64,000 bases of DNA, taken from positions 107,817-171,816 of the forward strand of contig VLTN01000071.1 in the NCBI GenBank assembly GCA_008330645.1, read 5' to 3'. The notes under the pieces are model-generated. The model was not told where the DNA came from and did not search any database. It saw only the letters and a program-made list of their open reading frames with translations. This document shows positions 33,547 through 49,370 of the stretch, piece by piece (position 1 is the stretch's first letter; each line of letters starts with the position of its first letter). The position numbers and the translations under genes were made by a program. Origin of the DNA: Cafeteria roenbergensis. Taxonomy: Eukaryota; Sar; Bigyra; Bicosoecida; Cafeteriaceae.

Positions 33547-36500
33547 ATGGCCCGGCTCGTGGTCTTAGGCCTCGGAGCCATTGTTCTTCTTGCCACGCTC
33601 GGCGGGGCGTCCATCGGCGGCCTGTTGCAGCACGTGAACCTGACAGTGTCCTCGTTGGATGCGCAGCCGGTGCGAGCGGCGCTGGGTGAGCTGGCGAACC
33701 ATGCCAAAGAGCTGCGCTCGCAGCTCGCAAGCGCCGAGCTCCTGAGCTGCGAGCTTCTGTGGGGGGGGGCGCTCAGGTGCTGGACTGCCGTTCCCAACAA
33801 CAACGAAGTCTTCCTTGCACCGCCTGGGCAGCCGGTGTGGGGCTGGAGGTCCATCTCTGCCGATTTCCGATCCGTCGTCGGCGTCCGGGAGAGCGGCGCT
33901 CCGTTCCTCTGGGGCCCAAGCAACTCGGAGCATGCAGAAATCAGCGAGATGGCGGACTTTCAGCAAGCCCGGCTCTCCCAAGCCACGATCGAGCACAGTC
34001 TTGTGTGCGGCATCGAGCAGGCTGGTCGGGCCCTTCGCTGCTGGGGGCAGAAACCCCCGTGGGGAACCGATCCAAGCCCGAGCCAGCTCGAGCTGGAGTG
34101 GTTGGATTCCTGCGTCGGGCAGGGCTCAGATGCTGGGAACAACTTCCTGTGCGGCATAGAGGCTCGCAGCGGCGATATTCGGTGCTTCTGGTCCGAAACG
34201 GACGTGCCCGTTGGCACTTTTTCGTCGCCGCCTCTCGGACAGGGGCCGTGGGCGGAGCTCCAGTGCGGCCGCCAGCTGCTCTGTGCCCGCCGAGTGAACG
34301 GCAGCATGGCGTGCTGGAGAGAGACCTTGTCGCCAATGACCGTCGACCAGGGAGCGCCGAGCCCTCTTGCCTTTTATGATGACTTCTGCTCGACAGACAG
34401 TTCTGTGTGCATGGTTTGGCACTCGCAACTGCTCTGCGGAGCCAAGCACACCGGAGACGTGCGGCCTAGTGACCAGTCGGGGACTCTAGGCTGGGAGCGC
34501 GTCGTTTGCGGGCGCGACCACATCTGCGCTTCTCAGGAGTGGGCCGGGTGGACGTGCTGGGCTGCTCCGATCGCATCGCTTCCGTTCATGCATGACGTTG
34601 TGCAGGGGTGGGCTTCGGTAGAGTCGTTCGGCACGACTCGTCGCGGAGCGATCGATCAGAATGGGAACCTGTGGACTTGGGACTCGTCGGCTGCCACGAC
34701 GCAGCGGTCAAAGTACTCGTTTGTGTCGCAGGTGGCGAGGGTTTGGGGGTACGCGTCGGGGGTCGAAATGATTCTTCTGCAAGACGGGACGCTCAAGGTC
34801 TCCGATGAAGTCCCGACCAAGCTGATAGGCCAAGTGGTGATTGATGCCGCCATGGTGTCCGGACTATGGGTAGCCCTGAAGGCGGACCGCCTTTTCGAGG
34901 TTGCCGAGGAGGCCGTTGGCCTCGGTGCGCGGATTCGCTCCGTGTCCTTGGCGGTGCACGCGCACGGCAACCACCTTTGTTCGATTGTTGCAGCCGACAG
35001 GTCTCTGAATTGCATCTTTTCAGACGCGTCGGGATATGGCACTAATTCGGCAAGCATGCCGTCGCCGAATACCGGATGGGCCCACGTGCGCGTGCGCGGC
35101 AGCGGCAAGTGCGCCATCCGGGAAACCGGGCCAATTTCGTGCGTCGGCATGTCCGCCAGCGTCCAGGCTGCGGTGCCGACGACAGGCTCGTTTAGCGCGC
35201 TCGCGCTCGTTGACGATGCCGCGTGCGCAATCGCAAACGACACCAGCCTTGTGTGCTGGGGCGACGGGCCAGCTGCGGCCCTTCCGCCTGAGCTCGCCAA
35301 CCGGACCGGGTGGACGGACATTGCTGCGCAAGCCGACGAGATATGCGGAATCCGACAGGGCAGGCTCGCGTGCTGGGGCAGCGCGACTTCGGCGGACGGG
35401 CTTGCAGCGCTGCCCGTCGCTAACGGGTGGAGCGACGTGGTGCTGGTGGATCCCTCCGAGGCCACTTGGCCAAGCGACCCAGTGGGCTGCGCGGGGCGCG
35501 GCCGGTGCCGGAACCTGACCGCGGCGCTGTCGTCCGGCGCCGGGGAGCTGGCAGTGGTGCTGGCCGGGGGATCGGAGCACTTGTTGGAGCGGCTGGAGTG
35601 CCAGGCTGGGTGGCTCGGCAGTGGAGCGGTCCATCGCGCCGTGGTGGCCGTTGCCGGGGGAGCTCCCACGGTGGTGCGCGTGGGCGAGGGGGCTTCGCTG
35701 GCTGCCTGTCCGCCAAAGCAGGCCGGCAAGCCAACGGTGATGGCAGTGCAGCTCGTCACAAGCGGCCCCGTGTCCTTCGAGCGAGCCGACAGCCCCGGGG
35801 CACCGGCAACTCTGCCTCTGTGGCCGGAGGGATCCGAGGCCGGCTGGCAGGCCACATCCTCGCTGCATTTGGACCACGCCGGGATCGGAAGCGTGGCCCT
35901 TGGCACGGCCCACGTGGAGGAGCTGGTGATCCGCGCCGACGCCGGCCCGGCCAGCACCGCACCGCTGCGGTCCTCGCTTGCCGGCGTGCGGGCCACCAAG
36001 GTGCGCGTGTCGCTCGGGAACGGGTCGGCGCCCGGGGTGCTGACGGCCATTGCGGACCAGGTGGCAGGGCTGCAGGAGCTCACGCTGCACGACTGCCCCT
36101 CGGCGCCTTCGGTCGATGCGGGCGCGGTGGGTGGGTCGTCAACGCTGCGGGTGGTGGACTTGTGGCGGTGCCGGGTGGAGCGCCTGCGCCCGGAGCTTTT
36201 GTCGGGGGCCAGGTCGCTCCAGGCGGTAGCGCTGCCGGCGGAGCTGACGTCGGTGGCACCGGGAAGCTTCAATGGCTCATCGCTGAAGACCATCGACCTC
36301 CGGGCGTCCGCAGGCCTTGTGGAGCTCGGCACGGGGGCGATTGCGGGCGCGGCAAATCTCTCGTCCTTGCTGCTGCCGTCGGGGCTGCGGCGGATCAACG
36401 CCTCGGCGCTGTCGGGGGCGCTGTCGCTGACAGAGTTGGACTTGCGGGACACGCAGGTCGCCCGGCTGCAGAATCGCTCGCTCGACGGAACCCCCGCGTT

Positions 36501-39500
36501 GTCGTCGCTCAAACTTGGGAGCAACGTGGAGGCCATTGACCCCGGCGCACTTGCGGGGACGGAGGCTCTTGCCGTGCTGGACCTCTCAGCCACGAGCGTG
36601 ACTGAGCTGCCCCCGGCACTGTGCTTGGGCGCGAGCGGGCTGATCTCGCTAGTTCTGCCCGCACGGCTGGACGTGGTCCACGAGGGCGCGCTCGCCCAGT
36701 GCCGGCGCGTCAACTCCCTTGACCTCTCTGGCACGCTGGTGCAGGAGCTGCCCGCCAGCATGCTGGAGGGCATGGCCAACCTGTCGCGCCTGGTTGTCCC
36801 GGTGGGTCTGCGCGAGGTGGGCCCGCGCGCGCTGAGCGGCGCTCCCAGGCTGGAGTCCATTGACCTGAGCAGGACCGCGGTGACCAGCCTCCAGCCCCTG
36901 GCCATTTCCGAACTGCCCCTCCTGGATTCGCTGCAGCTGCCCTTCGGCATCACGGCTCTGCCGGCAGGCTCCTTCCTCAACTTGCCCCGCCTCAGCCACC
37001 TGGACCTTGCCGTGACCAAGCTCGAGGTGCTGGAGGCCGGCGCGTTGGCCGAGCTCGGGGGCATGCTGCACCTGCGACTCGGGTCGCCGTGGCTGCGGTC
37101 CGTGGGGGAGGGCTGCCATGCGTTTGAAGGCCTCGTTCGGCTGCGGTCCCTGACGGTGGAGCCCAGTCCTCAGCTGGCCGGCCTGGGCGCTCCGAGGTCG
37201 CTCCCGCCGGGCGGCATTGCGTCGTGCAGCTTCGCGGGGAGCCTCCAGTCCCTGAGCATCTCGGGCGTCAACCTCTCGTCGCTGGTCCTGGAGCGCGACA
37301 CCCTGGGCGCGGCCGGCGGCACGCTGAAGGCCGTCTCGATTCGCGGCTCGGGGCTGTGGGACGTGCGCACGGGGGCGCTGACGTCGATGCGACTGCTCCA
37401 GTCCCTCGACCTGTCCATGAACCGCATCGTGGTGCTGCCGCGGCTGTCGCGCGCAGTGCTGGAGGCGATCGGCTCCATCAACGCGACGGGAAACGCTCTC
37501 GACGAGGTAGCCGCCGACGTCTTCGCTGGCCTGCTAAACCTCCGCACGGTCGAGGCCGAGGTTGGGAAGGAGTGCAACCCGGGCACCGTCAGGCAGGCCG
37601 TGCAGCTCAAGGGCGACGCGGTCGCGATGTGCGTCAAGTGTGTGCCGGGCAAGTACTGCCCCGACGGGGCCACCGCCGAGCCTTGCCCCATCGGCACGTA
37701 CGGGACCGAGGCCGGGCTTGCCAGCTCCGAGGGCTGCACGACGTGCCCGGCGGGCTCCACCACGCTGGCCGTGGGCGAGTCTGCTGCGGAGGCGTGCGTG
37801 CCTGTGGTGGCAAACTGCGCGGCGGGCACTGGCGGGTCGCTCTGCCGCCCCTGCAGCGCCGGCACGGCGAGCACGGGCGGGCGGGAGGCGGAGTGCGAGC
37901 TTTGCTCCCCGGGCTTCGTCAGCGCCTCCATGCTGGGCTCGATCGACTGCGAGCCCTGTCCGGCGGGCACGTTCCAGCCGGCGTCGGGCGCGGCGACGGA
38001 GGCTTCCTGCGTTCCCTGCGGGCTCGGGCTGGTATCCGCCGAGGGCAGCAGGACCTGCAGGGCGTGCCCCGCGGGGACAGAGCTCCAGGGGACCGCGTGC
38101 GTGGCGTGCTCCGGGCCGGACGCCCTGCTTCGCTGCCCCGCGGGCGCTGCCCAAGCGGTGGAGCTGCCACAGACGCTCGAGCAGCTCCTGGGAAAGCTCC
38201 CGACCGGGGACGCTCCGGCGGTCCCTGCCGTGGACCCAGGCGCAGCGCTGGACGCTGGATCTTCCCAAGAGGACGCCAGCGCCAGGCGTGCGCGCGCGGC
38301 CGGACGATCGCTCCAATCAGGCGACGCTCCGGCGGGAGCTGCCGCGCCGGACGACGAGCAGCTGTCGAATGTGGAGCTGCTGGCCTGGACGCTGCAGGTG
38401 TCGCTTGGCATCAGCGCGGGCGCGGTGCTCGTCGTTCTGGGGCTGATGCTCGTCTTCCCGTGCGCGAGGACCTTCATGTGGCCTGTGCTCGCCGCACTGG
38501 ACGGCTTCCGGGTGGCACACGCGCAGCCCCGCTTCGCAGCCGTGCGCGTGGTCCCGACGGTGACGGGCGGGGTGTTCACGCTGGCCGCAGCCGTCGCGGC
38601 GCTGGCCCTGGCCTCTGCGCTTGTGGTGGGGTACTTCGGAGCCAACACACTGCGAAGCTCCTCGCTCAAGGTGGAGGCCACCGGGGTGGAGAACGCCCAC
38701 CTTGCAGCCTCGGCAACAGGCGACATCCTCTTTGTGAGTTCGCGCGCGCGCGCTGCGCCTCCGAGCACGCCGTGCGTCCCTGCGCGAGGTCGCGCGCAAT
38801 TCACGAGACACGTGGGCGCTGCCGCGCCGGGGATGCGGGCTCGCATTGCGCTCCGTCGTGCCCGGCCCCGTGCTGCTCGTCTGCCGCTGTGGCATCCGCG
38901 CGCCTCAAAATCCGGCTCCGCCTCGTTCCCCCGCTCCCGCACCGCTGCGCCCCATCGCAGGACGCTGTGTTCCAGCCCATGCGGTCCGTCGCCTGCGCCA
39001 GCGCGGCGGAGCTGGTGGTGGATTCGCCTTCTGGGGACGTGTCGCAGCTGGCGGCCACGGCGTCGACGTCGGTGCTGCAGCAGTCGGGCACAGGGCCGGT
39101 GTGCTGGACCCGGGGCAAGTGCACGGGCTGCCAGTTCCGGTCGGCTGCGGAGGTGGCTCTGCGCACGCACTGGTCGGTGCAGTCGGTGGCGTGGCGGCTG
39201 GCCTCCACTGACGCGGAGGGCATGTGGGTGAGCGTCAACGGGCTGGTGTCGCCCGCCACGGCCTCGGGCGCGTCTGTGCTCGGGAACGTGTCCCGCATGC
39301 TGGAGCGGCACTCGGAGACGCTTGCTCTGGTGCCCCACGTGGCCATCGACGACACCCCTACCGGAGGCATGCTGGGTGGCAAGGCGGGCTCGTCCGGCTC
39401 TGTGGACGCCTCGGGCAGCTCCAAGGGCCGCGTGAGCACCGGCCTCATCCCGCAGGACCTGAGCCGAGAGGCCACCAGCCGCACCAACGAGGCTGACGTG

Positions 39501-40391: not shown

Positions 40392-42669
40392 TCACTTGCC
40401 ACGCGTGACAGCGAGCATGATGAGCTCCTGGACGCGGCTGTCGTTGCTCGCGATCTTGGCCTGGGCCTGCGCGATGCGCGCCTCGAGGGCCTGGCAGGCG
40501 TCCTCGGCCGAGCGCAGCTTGGCCTCGAAGGGGCGGAGGGCCTCGGCCGTCTCTTGCCTGGCCGCGCCCAGGGCCTCGGCCTGCTTCCGCGTCTCCTCGC
40601 CCCACTGCACCAGCTCTGCGCGCATGTCCGCCATGTCCTCGCGAGCGTAGCCCATGGACTGGCCCAGCGGCGTGGCGGACTGCACCAGCGCCTGCACGGC
40701 CTCCCGCAGCGACGGCAAGTCCAGCACCTGGCCGGGCGCGGCGCCACGCCCGCGGCCCCCGATCCGGCCCATCTTCACGCCGCCCGCGTCCTGCTCCTTG
40801 GACTCGGACGCCCCGCCGCCCGAGCCTCCGGCCCCGGCCCTGCCCGCCTCGCGCTTGGCCTGGCCCAGGATGTCGCGGGTGTGCTTCCCCGCCCCGCCCG
40901 CGGTCGCGGAGCCGCCCCCCGAGCGCAAGCCGAGGTCGCCGCCCGCGTCGTCGTCGTCTTCGCTGTCATCGTCACCGCCCTCGGCCATCACGCCTGCGGC
41001 CGCGCGCTTGGACGGCGCAGCGCCCCCTCCCGCCTCGGGGCCCGCCGCATCCGTCGCGGGCTTGACCCGGGGCGGCCGCTTGCGAGCCGTCTGCGGCCGC
41101 GCAAGGCGCCTGATGGGCCGGCCGCCGATCGCGCCCGCCGTTTCGCCGCCTCCGGCGGCCGCCGCTGTGTCCACGGCCGCGCCCCCGTCGGCTGCGCTCG
41201 CGTCGCCGGCAGCGGCGTCGTGGCGCCCCCAGCCCTCGGTGGACTGCGGCTGCTGCTGCTGCGAGTGGTGGGCTGGCAGCTCCATGTCGGCCGAGGGTCT
41301 GACAGGCGCGGGTGCGGGTGCGGGCGCAGGCGCAGGCGCAGGCGCAGGCGCGGGCTCCACGGGGGCAGGCGCCGGCCCCGCAGCTGCTGCCGACGGCGCC
41401 GCCGCCTGTCCGGCGGCGCCCCCGACGGGGACCCCGTCCCGCCTGGCGTGGGCACGCGCTACTGCGTCCGCGCAGGGGCCCTTTTGCGCTGCCACGCCGA
41501 GCATCTGGAGCAGGACGTTGGTCGAGGGGGCGTCCTTGCCCGCCGCGACCCGCTCCGGCGCGGCCGGGCAGCGCATGCCGGTGGCCTCCTCCGCAAAGTC
41601 GCGCAGCAGCTGCAGGAAGGCGAGCTTGTCCTCCCGCTCCCGGATGGCCTTGCCGTCCTCAAGGGACGCCGGGAGGAGGCCGCTTCCAAGGCCGGTCGCC
41701 GCCCTGAGGGCCGTGAAGATGTCGTGGATGAAGCGAAGCGGGGGCCTGCCGAGGAGCTTGTCCACCAGCTTGGGCTTGGCGATGAGGGCACCCACGACCT
41801 GGCGCGTCACGTCGAAGGACCCGTCGAGGCCAGCCGACTCGGGGGCGAACGTTGCTGCCGTGGGGGCGTTGGGGGCGGCGGCGCTCGGGCGCGGAGCGGG
41901 CGCTGCGGCTGCAGCAGCGGCCGGAGCAGGTGCAGGCGCCGGGGCGGGGGCGGGGGCACGCGCAGGGGCCGGCCGCTCGCGCGGGGCAGGTGCTGGGGCC
42001 GGCGCCGTTGCGCAGTGTGCCAGTGCCTGCGAAGGCGGGGAGGGCGCGGCGGTGGCAGCGGCGTCGGAGGGCTCGGTCGGGTCGCTATGCGCTGCCACGG
42101 CAGCACGCCCTCTGCCCCCGTCCGCCCCTCATCCCGCGGGCAGGGGCTTTCGGAACTCGTGTCTCCGGGAGAGACCCGCCGCGGGAAGGAGGCGGCCGGT
42201 TGGGCGGCAACGCGGCTCGCGCGCGCTGGTCGTCCGTTGCTCGGTTGCCAGGACGACCACGCGGCTCGGCGTTCCACCCGATTGCCTGCCCATCGCCCCG
42301 CCAGGGTCTCACCTGCAGCATATAGTTTGTCATCTCCGGCTCCTTCCCGGCCGCGACCTTCATGGGGTCCACTCCGAGCGGCTTGCCGAGGGACTTGGCG
42401 AGCAGGTCGAGCAGCTTGGTCAGGAAATGCAGCTTCTCATCGCGCTCCATGGACTTGGGCTCCAGCTCGGGCCCCGAGAAGGCGCCGCGCAGGTAGCCAG
42501 TGGCATCGGTCACGGCGGTCACGGCGTCGTGCACGAACCGGAAGGGCGGCCTGCTCAGCAGCTTGTCCCGCATGGGCGGCTTGCTGACCAACCGGCCGAG
42601 ACTTGCCTTGGTCCGCTCGATCATCACGCCGAGGTCGCCCACTGGGGCTTCGAGGCCAGCAGCCGCCAT
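40392..42669 (-). CDS. IFT54: Intraflagellar transport protein 54 with duplicated N-terminal MIP-T3 domain
   Basis: Exons 42313..42669 and 40392..42026 join in phase 0 to 663 residues. IFT54 (TRAF3IP1, MIP-T3) is an IFT-B subunit that binds tubulin through an N-terminal calponin-homology-like domain and IFT20 through a C-terminal coiled coil. Exon 1 is one such domain (about 15-119) with DKLLSRPPFRFVHD and VAAGKEPEMTNYMLQ. Exon 2, after a Pro-Ala linker, carries a second copy (about 185-305) with DKLLGRPPLRFIHD and VAAGKDAPSTNVLLQ. A long Ala/Gly/Pro linker with an acidic patch (DDDSEDDDDAGG) leads to the conserved C-terminus: SLREAVQALVQSATPLGQSM...MADMRAELVQWGEE, then a coiled coil to residue 663. 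Two domain copies are not the family norm. It diverges from APC10 across 204 bp. Confidence 0.88.
41305..41355. repeat. Short tandem repeat encoding Pro-Ala
   Basis: Repeated GCGGGT/GCAGGC hexamers inside IFT54 encode an Ala-Pro string on the minus strand. A second Ala-Pro string is encoded near 41930-42000. Confidence 0.7.
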
Positions 42670-42873: not shown

Positions 42874-44258
42874 ATGGCCGACCGGCGGTCTGCGTCCCAG
42901 GCCGGGTCGGAGGCGGCTTCGGATGCCGAGTCGGAGGCCTCGGAGGCATCGCCACTTGAGCGCGCCGTTGCCGTCGTGCTCACCCCGCCCCAGCCCGATC
43001 CCGGACTCGGGAGCGAGCTCTCGGAGTCCCTCGTTCGCTGCATCAACGGCTCCGCCCGCTGGGTGCTCTCAGGGGCCAAGCCCGGGAACGGCATTGAGTG
43101 CCTGCTGGACGACAGCGTGAGCGGCAAGCACGCCCCAAGCGGCGGCGCTTCGATCGAAGCCGGCCCCGCCCCGGAAGCTTGTCCGCGCACCCTCGGCGGT
43201 GGCGGCTGCCGTGGCCCGCGCGCCCGTTCTTGGCCAGCATTCGCTCACGGGACCCAAGCGCAGTCCACTGCCTGTCAATCGCCTCCACTTCCCCCCCCGC
43301 TCCCCCCCGCCTGCAGCTGGAGACATGGTGGCAGAGCGACGGCAAGGCCCCGCACACGGTACAGGCCGTGTTCGACCGGCGGACCACGGTTGTGGGCGTT
43401 GCCATGTTCGTGGAGTACGGGGCTGACGAAAGCTACACACCCAACAAGGTGAGCTGCCGCAGGCCAACGCATGAGCGCTTGTGATTCGGGGGACGCGCGC
43501 CACCGAATCTGCGGTGCGCGCGCGCATGATACCCTCGACGCGAGCGCCGCGTGCCTTTCGCTGCCCCAGCAGCTGCGGTCAGCGCTTCGGGGCCACTCCC
43601 ACGGCAGCGAGCAGAGGCCTCGCCGCCCCCTGGCGCTGCGCAGGTGGCGATTCGCGCCGGGATGGCGGCTGGCCTGACGACTACGATCCGAGAGGTGACG
43701 CTGGAAGAACCCAGCGGGTGGGTGTGGATTCCGCTGGCGCTGCCGGACCCGGACGCGGACCTCACGATGCCCCGCGGCGTGCGGACTGGCGACCGGTCGC
43801 GCGTCGGCCGGGCCAGCTCCAGCGGGGAGGTGCACTGCTTCCCCTTTGGCCTCAAGCCTCTGCGGTGCCACGTGGTGGAGGTCATTGTGCCGTCCATGCA
43901 CCAAAACGGACGCGACACGAGGATTCGGCAACTGCGCGTGCTTGGACCCGCGCGCTCGCTTGTGGCGCCCGTGCTGCCGCTTCCGTCCGCTGCAGCCTTG
44001 GCGAAGCGCGGGGAAGCAGGGTCCCGTCCCGGCGAGGGGGGGCGTGCCAGCGATGGTGTTGCGGGAGCCGGCAGCGAAGGCGACGGGGGCGACGAGGACT
44101 CGCCCGCAACTGCCGCTGCCGCAGTTGCGGCAGCCCTCGGCCGAGTGACCAGGGCGGCCGAGCGGGCGGCCGCGCCAGCAGCGGGCCGGGCCTCGCCAGC
44201 AAGGCGGCGCGGCGCGAGGAATGCTATGGCGTTTGACACGCTGCCCGCGTTGCGCTGA
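42874..44258 (+). CDS. APC10: Anaphase-promoting complex subunit 10 (Doc1)
   Basis: Exons 42874..43116, 43317..43448 and 43644..44258, all phase 0, give 329 residues; animal APC10 is about 185. The DOC beta-jelly-roll runs from about 55 to 205: ARWVLSGAKPGNGIECLLDD, then LETWWQSDGKAPHTVQAVF, VEYGADESYTPNK, EPSGWVWIPLAL, and HQNGRDTRIRQLRVLGP. These include the family's WQSDG, DESYTP and NGRDTH-type motifs that form the substrate-degron receptor surface shared with the APC/C co-activator. An N-terminal acidic Ser/Glu extension (about 40 residues) and a C-terminal Ala/Gly-rich extension (about 100) are extra. The chain ends LPALR rather than the Ile-Arg tail used by canonical APC10 to dock on APC3. 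It is a nuclear cell-cycle ubiquitin-ligase subunit. Confidence 0.93.
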
Positions 44259-48525: not shown

Positions 48526-49370
48526 TCATTTCACGACACGCAGGAACGCAGGCAGCTCCCTGTCCTCGTACCGCTTGTCCTGGAAAAAGATGCGTGCCAC
48601 CCGGCAGCTGCTCTTCACCGTCACGCCTGTGGTGAACGCGAGGTGCGCGCCGAAGGCCATGTGGACCACGTCCTCCACGTCGACGCAGCAGTAGTTCCAG
48701 CCCGGCCGGATCATCAGCGGCAGCGACGCCTTCTCGCGACCGATACGAGCCACGGACGCCCGGGAGCTCAGCTCGATCGTGTACTCCGCCCCCGCGCGGC
48801 TCTCCACTGTCAGCTCCACCGCGCAAAACCGGCCGATGTCCTTCAGCTGCAACACCAGGAAGGGCAGCGAGCACTCGCACTTGAACCCCAGCCGCACCTT
48901 GCCGTCCCGCCCCATGAGCTCCAGTGCCTCGGCCGCAATCTCGCCGTCCGTCACGATGCTCGCCTCCACCACGTCCTCCGACGTGTTCTTGCGCCGCCCC
49001 GCCGCGGCCTCGGCCATTCCCTCTTCCGCGTAGAACTCGGACTCTGCGGCAGCACGGGGGCGCGAGCTCGCACACCGCGCATGGGGTCGCATCGCAGGCC
49101 GTTCCCGCGCAGCGCCGGGCTGCCTTCGCTGCCCGGCCCGCGGCCGCATGGCGAGAGGGACAGGGCGGAGAGGGAGCAAGCGCCGCGCAGCGGCAACCGC
49201 GGCCGGGGCTCACCCTCGATCGCCCTAGCAACAGGCCGCATCTCCCCAAAGCGGGTGTCCGCGTTGGGCGGAAGCAGGGCGACGATGGGAAAGTGGTCAT
49301 CAGGCCCGGCGGGGCCGGGTCCCGGCTGCACAGACGCAGCCGTTGTGGACCCCGGGGAAGGGGCCGCCAT
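48526..49370 (-). CDS. CFAP20-family (DUF667) protein
   Basis: Exons 49214..49370 and 48526..49043 give 224 residues. After about 65 variable N-terminal residues comes a CFAP20-type beta-sandwich: VEASIVTDGEIAAEALELMG, LPFLVLQLKDIGRFCAVELTV, LPLMIRPGWNYCCVDVEDV, GVTVKSSCRVARIFFQDKRY and DRELPAFLRV. Order and spacing match CFAP20 (BUG22), whose equivalents include LPFLVMIIKNLKKYFTFEV, GWNQIQFNLLDF, CRIRRVYFSDRLYSEDELP. True CFAP20 is extremely conserved, so this divergent copy is more likely a paralogue than the orthologue. CFAP20 bridges A- and B-tubules of ciliary doublets; a related ciliary role here is inference. It diverges from the HIG1 gene with 255 bp between ATGs. Confidence 0.8.

Follow-up and report, generated by a model that had tools for sequence, protein, structure and literature searches.

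IFT54 (TRAF3IP1, MIP-T3) is represented by solved chains from Chlamydomonas (8bd7, 5fmt), mouse (5fmu) and human (2eqo). It consists of a CH-like domain, a long linker and a MIP-T3_C coiled coil. In human, mouse and Chlamydomonas the solved protein carries a single CH domain in each chain, an arrangement that is customary in the family without formally defining it. Three papers (PMC10320715, PMC10987677, PMC10191852), which cite Taschner 2016 and Zhu 2017/2021, state that the coiled coil pairs with IFT20, and that the CH domain is a head on a long linker, unmodelled in the train probably on account of linker flexibility. According to these papers and PMC4617596, the head binds dynein-2 WDR60 (residues 375-388) and is reported to bind tubulin in vitro. 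The head is nonetheless dispensable for ciliogenesis in IFT54-knockout rescue cells, and a Chlamydomonas mutant agrees (PMC10320715, PMC10987677 and PMC10191852). IFT57 (PMC10320715), IFT38 and IFT81 (both PMC10191852) are likewise described as having a CH-like head at the N-terminus, followed by a coiled coil.

The gene described here lies on the minus strand of a 64,000-nucleotide stretch of the Cafeteria roenbergensis genome (the window), which varies from 58 to 76% G+C in 2-kb steps. Judged by its sequence it is the IFT54 (TRAF3IP1) of this small marine flagellate, and it is the only one returned by a profile search of the genome (36,303,456 bases in 167 contigs). It shares the CH-like domain, the long linker and the coiled coil with the known proteins, but differs in carrying two CH domains in place of one, in an extra linker rich in alanine and proline, and in an N-terminal CH domain that is without the terminal segment. 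The presence of two CH-like domains, a coiled coil, an intact frame and splice signals is well supported by the sequence.

Anatomy of the gene and its neighbors

The reading frame begins with the ATG at 42669 and ends with the stop at 40394-40392; the last base of exon 1 is 42313 and the first base of exon 2 is 42026. Exon 1 opens with ATGGCGGC and closes with CAG, directly downstream of which lies GTGAGA. Joined in phase 0, the two exons would encode a protein of 663 amino acids. The exon and splice coordinates given in the preliminary description are exact, and all four motifs that it quoted were found (residues 35-48, 208-221, 105-119 and 279-293). The features are as follows.

42313..42669, minus strand: exon 1, 119 codons, with a short N-terminus and CH copy 1, which Pfam matches from residue 17 up to the end of the exon; evidence from PF10243, 5fmu and coding score
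42027..42312, minus strand: intron, 286 nt, phase 0, CAG/GTGAGA...TTCGCAG/GCA; evidence from splice ranking and coding score
40395..42026, minus strand: exon 2, 544 codons, comprising the Ala/Pro linker, CH copy 2, the long linker and the coiled coil; evidence from PF10243, PF17749 and 8bd7
41811..42005, minus strand: linker 1, which separates the CH domains, with a length of about 65 residues, a net charge of +1 and an Ala+Pro content of about 71%; evidence from composition
41484..41810, minus strand: CH copy 2, protein residues 192-300; evidence from Pfam, from 5fmt by sequence and from Foldseek, where 5fmt is the best match
41433..41483, minus strand: terminal CH segment (KGPCADAVARAHARRDG), which continues copy 2 in the canonical way; evidence from the 5fmt alignment (QKGNGAKAVQK) and a low-confidence model helix, 126-137
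40737..41432, minus strand: linker 2, of low complexity, with short stretches in common with Chlamydomonas IFT54, such as RPQTARKRPPRV at 41064-41099; evidence from the 8bd7 alignment
40416..40733, minus strand: MIP-T3_C coiled coil, protein residues 551-656 (the IFT20-binding region in known IFT54); evidence from PF17749
40392..40394, minus strand: stop codon TGA

Several neighbors of the gene were seen in the window. A divergent gene (42875-44258, plus strand), a later exon of which matches ANAPC10 with 43.6 bits, seems to begin about 205 bases from the IFT54 start, which would allow a promoter region common to both genes. A CFA20 domain at 48541-49050 on the minus strand (69.8 bits) marks a further candidate ciliary gene close to IFT54. 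On the plus strand, 31707-32636 matches the SpoVS family in two stretches (45.4 bits), a family named for a bacterial sporulation protein although the window is eukaryotic, and a very long open reading frame at 33577-38736 contains leucine-rich repeats and an ephrin-receptor-like cysteine-rich stretch.

Two CH-like domains in one predicted protein

The joined protein matches the Pfam family PF10243 (MIP-T3/IFT54 CH-like) in two stretches, with 198.9 bits and E 2e-59. Taken alone, exon 1 scores 105.4 bits (E 2.1e-30) and exon 2 scores 88.3 bits (E 4.2e-25, at exon-2 residues 73-181), where the gathering cut-off is 23.4 bits. The MIP-T3 profile thus finds two matches, one per exon, rather than one, as the preliminary description had anticipated. 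Its single C-terminal coiled coil was recovered also: one match to PF17749 (MIP-T3_C; cut-off 25.8) follows the CH domains, with 74.2 bits in the joined protein and 74.4 bits in exon 2 alone. The further claim that each exon holds a full copy stands for the Pfam domain, copy 1 of the joined protein covering profile positions 2-112 of 113, but not for the terminal CH segment, which follows copy 2 only.

The likeness between the copies is not due to chance, since their Smith-Waterman score is 184 and the best of 1000 shuffles reached 65. Among PDB sequences the best match of copy 1 is the mouse IFT54 CH domain 5fmu (91.5 bits, E 5e-25), and Chlamydomonas 5fmt scores 79.5 bits. Exon 2 matches Chlamydomonas best: 8bd7 with 108.4 bits, a score that includes the coiled coil, 5fmt with 95.6 bits (E 3.5e-26) and mouse with 62.2 bits. 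Up to the residues LLQ, 49 alignment columns are invariant in human, mouse and Chlamydomonas; copy 1 retains 31 of these, copy 2 retains 26, and 23 are retained in both.

AlphaFold models from two-row alignments were modest, with a mean pLDDT of 65.1 for copy 1 and 58.2 for copy 2. Compared with the PDB by Foldseek, the copy 1 model has five matches with E <= 0.001, all of them IFT54 CH domains (5fmu, E 7.7e-06), and the copy 2 model has two, both the Chlamydomonas IFT54 CH domain (5fmt, E 2.4e-04), with the mouse and human IFT54 CH domains next at E 0.001-0.009. The TM-scores of the IFT54 CH matches are modest (0.50-0.63), and for this reason we give more weight to the sequence evidence than to the fold matches.

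Two CH folds within a single chain are the mark of the tandem CH actin-binding domains of alpha-actinin, dystrophin and fimbrin; in IFT54, by contrast, the two CH domains stand about 65 Ala/Pro-rich residues apart. Against the PDB the copy 1 model has no significant match to a CH domain of the alpha-actinin type (best E 2.4), and among the best 50 matches of the copy 2 model none is better than parvin at E 7.4. PF10243 is the only CH family that Pfam reports in the joined protein. On the basis of the fold and Pfam results we rejected an identity as tandem actin-binding CH domains.

Across the genome PF10243 occurs in four places: the two IFT54 copies, a protein of contig C10 that combines CH with ankyrin, and a weakly matching frame of contig C21. 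The first of the two other proteins (L005:2350-5385) has an IFT54-type CH domain (MIP-T3, 37.8 bits) followed by ankyrin repeats (Ank_2, 72.7 bits). It shares PF10243 with IFT54 and is about 35% identical to copy 1, but differs in its ankyrin repeats, its single CH domain and the lack of a MIP-T3_C match. The second (L006:2700-4445) is an open frame of 582 residues with a match of 24.2 bits (cut-off 23.4) in its first part and no other Pfam match. IFT54 is the one place over the cut-off for PF17749; weak coiled-coil matches mean little in this family, since 2 of 14 control genomes gave signals below the cut-off.

Genes for IFT20, IFT57 and IFT38 were found in the same genome by the profile search. 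IFT20, IFT38/CLUAP1 and IFT81_CH each match at two neighboring places with successive profile positions, which corresponds to one gene in exons. IFT57 has one strong place (231 bits) and one weak (30.1 bits), the latter covering the coiled-coil part only; the control for this family gave sub-cut-off signals in 3 of 14. In this profile search no doubling of the CH domain was seen in IFT57, IFT38/CLUAP1 or IFT81, unlike in IFT54. In scans for relatives, none of 21 pattern matches in viral contigs and none of 36 in contigs of prokaryote genomes was confirmed, as is expected of a eukaryotic gene. In the literature, no two-CH IFT54 appears in the titles and opening lines of abstracts of the matches listed, and the one match in which the terms 'IFT54' and 'two CH domains' occur together is a comparison of IFT81 with Ndc80. 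The deposited gene model of IFT54 may already show two domains; according to PMC6972860 the gene models of this species drew on transcriptome data of E4-10P, and PMC7852580 also describes a transcriptome.

Splicing, and the order and age of the copies

That the two domains are joined by an in-frame splice, as previously claimed, we infer from the sequence: the intron is of the GT-AG type and in phase 0, and its donor and acceptor are both top-ranked. Splice matrices were derived from 20 other introns proposed by a crude predictor within the window, the IFT54 gene being left out; these introns have GTGAG/GTAAG-type donors, lengths of 60-700 nt and C or T at acceptor position -3. The acceptor at 42026 ranks first among 112 AG sites in the region that starts 60 nt inside the intron and extends to the end of exon 2, and about 0.1% of the AG sites of the window score as high. 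Of all GT sites in exon 1 and the intron, the donor at 42313 ranks highest, a ranking that is partly circular because the predictor favored, and the training set kept, donors of the GTGAG/GTAAG type. An intron of IFT20 in the same genome has an identical acceptor, TCGCAG/GCA, and separates exons that correspond to profile positions 2-33 and 34-119.

Coding scores per codon are +0.334 for exon 1 and +0.378 for CH2, and range from -0.21 to -0.32 in all three frames of the intron; the counts of this codon model exclude the IFT54 exons, although these exons had seeded the model that supplied its segment list. For linker 1 the score falls slightly below zero (-0.108 per codon), which counts mildly against coding but fits a low-complexity sequence of alanine and proline. 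The crude gene finder, which lacks an acceptor model, spliced exon 1 to 41837 rather than 42026 and chained IFT54 to its neighbors; as it over-joins adjacent genes, its gene list was not used as annotation. By sequence, an acceptor at 41837, or any other in-frame acceptor between 42026 and CH2, would still give two CH domains; the one at 41837 would leave a shorter linker.

If instead there were two genes, exon 1 would encode a short stand-alone CH protein and exon 2 the true IFT54. Exon 2 alone does align with Chlamydomonas IFT54 from the CH domain through to the coiled coil, and with the intron retained exon 1 would extend for 75 residues and then reach a stop. Such an arrangement, however, would still call for an extra first exon with a start upstream of exon 2: in the exon 2 frame there is a stop just past 42128 and no ATG before exon-2 residue 151, which lies midway through CH2; in this frame exon 2 therefore cannot initiate a CH-bearing protein of its own. 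Moreover, donor and acceptor are both strong, and the PF10243 score rises by about 5 bits on joining compared to the summed exons, which lends weak support to the join. Given the lack of a start before CH2 and the splice signals, we rejected the two-gene arrangement as very improbable. A different possibility is that the donor at 42313 is alternatively spliced to an internal CAG/ATG at 41504, producing a single-CH isoform beside the two-CH form. The exon 1 donor and the internal CAG fall at the same homologous residue, after LLQ, and both are in phase 0; their joining would skip copy 2 and supply copy 1 with the canonical last segment (MLGVAAQKGPCADAV), the outcome being a textbook IFT54. Yet the 41504 site ranks 19th of the 112, with about 16% of window AG sites scoring as high as against about 0.1% for 42026, and the CAG codon there is no surprise because Q is conserved at this position in the compared IFT54 sequences. 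In addition, copy 2 is conserved and so must be translated in some transcript. We regard the additional isoform as improbable.

Identity between the two copies is 39% over the multiple alignment and 41% by BLASTP. Copy 1 is 40% and copy 2 is 44% identical to Chlamydomonas IFT54 (44% and 46% by BLASTP), and the corresponding values for mouse are 36% and 30%. The copies are therefore no closer to each other than either is to Chlamydomonas IFT54. While their tandem order would suit an assembly artefact or a very recent duplication, they are too diverged for either; we rejected both, and consider the chance of such an origin negligible. The sequences suggest that the duplication is old, or that the copies diverged fast. 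A tree was built from six sequences, namely both copies, the two further PF10243 matches of the genome, and the mouse and Chlamydomonas proteins; human was omitted as near-identical to mouse. In the best tree the copies are not sisters, and copy 2 groups with Chlamydomonas with 60% ultrafast bootstrap. In a test of five topologies a sister relationship of the copies was not rejected by the AU value of 0.12, which came with a warning of too few replicates, and its RELL bootstrap share of 0.03 marks exclusion.

Exon 2 aligns in one stretch with Chlamydomonas IFT54 8bd7 (query 76-540, chain 13-507) and, by sequence, appears on its own like a complete canonical IFT54. The residues right after CH2 (QMLGVAAQKGPCADAV) match Chlamydomonas QMLGRACQKGNGAKAV, as do short stretches of the linker, whereas copy 1 gives way in the joined protein to ALAHCATAPAPAP, in which the segment around V125 has no equivalent. 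This difference in what follows the two copies argues that CH2 is in the ancestral place and that exon 1 is an added head. The ancestral IFT54 would have comprised CH2, linker 2 and the coiled coil, with CH1 an extra, long-diverged head placed in front. The higher retention of invariant columns and the higher Pfam score of copy 1 run against this simple picture.

LLQ are the final residues of exon 1; the segment that closes the solved CH domains (around V125; helix 126-137 in the copy 2 model) is present after copy 2 only. The position of V125 is one we take from counting along the mouse chain with an assumed offset. PMC4617596 places I17 and V125 of IFT54 in hydrophobic pockets, identifies V125 as a patient-mutation site and reports that I17 and V125 mutants of the isolated mouse CH domain are insoluble. 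As copy 1 is without the terminal segment, CH1 may fold or bind differently. It might even be on its way out, a tolerated extra copy that has lost its last segment and no longer works as a CH domain; the missing counterpart of the V125 segment and the insolubility of the mutants (PMC4617596) point in that direction. Copy 1, however, retains more of the invariant columns than copy 2 (31 versus 26 of 49), the opposite of decay, and has the higher Pfam score (105 versus 88 bits), so we doubt that CH1 is decaying.

What a second head may do

We assign a probability of about 0.6 to the reading that this is a single IFT54 gene, with the order CH1, Ala/Pro linker, CH2, long linker and coiled coil, in which the second head would add avidity or valency and leave IFT-B assembly unaltered. 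The coiled coil would pair with IFT20 in IFT-B2, as it does in other species. With an additional head, tethered by a further flexible linker, the protein would gain avidity or valency for WDR60 and tubulin, either with both heads on the same client or with labor divided between them. We consider this the likeliest effect because the known CH domain is a mobile, flexibly tethered head that binds both WDR60 and tubulin. An effect on IFT-B assembly is unlikely.

In the preliminary description the CH domain was said to be used for IFT-B assembly, which is doubtful: the domain is dispensable and flexibly linked, and assembly belongs to the coiled coil (PMC10320715, PMC10987677, PMC10191852). By analogy with known IFT54, the head is no less likely to serve in docking dynein-2 through WDR60 than in binding tubulin. 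A doubling of tubulin cargo, also put forward there, is possible and would be no better supported than a doubling of dynein-2 tethering. The dimer-like contact between heads finds no support, since the linker is long and its composition points to flexibility.

It is conceivable, though unlikely, that the heads are divided in their work, with one CH domain holding dynein-2 via WDR60 and the other carrying tubulin. If so, one IFT54 would load the return motor and structural cargo at once, and two activities that reside in one domain in the IFT54s studied so far would have been separated in evolution.

The function of the IFT54 CH domain is itself unsettled: it binds tubulin in vitro and it binds WDR60, yet its removal has little reported effect (PMC10320715). 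Two long-diverged heads in one protein, one of them without the terminal segment, constitute a natural comparative test; if their clients differ, then the binding activities are separable. A two-CH IFT54 would show that the flexible, cargo-loading part of a conserved train can gain modules.
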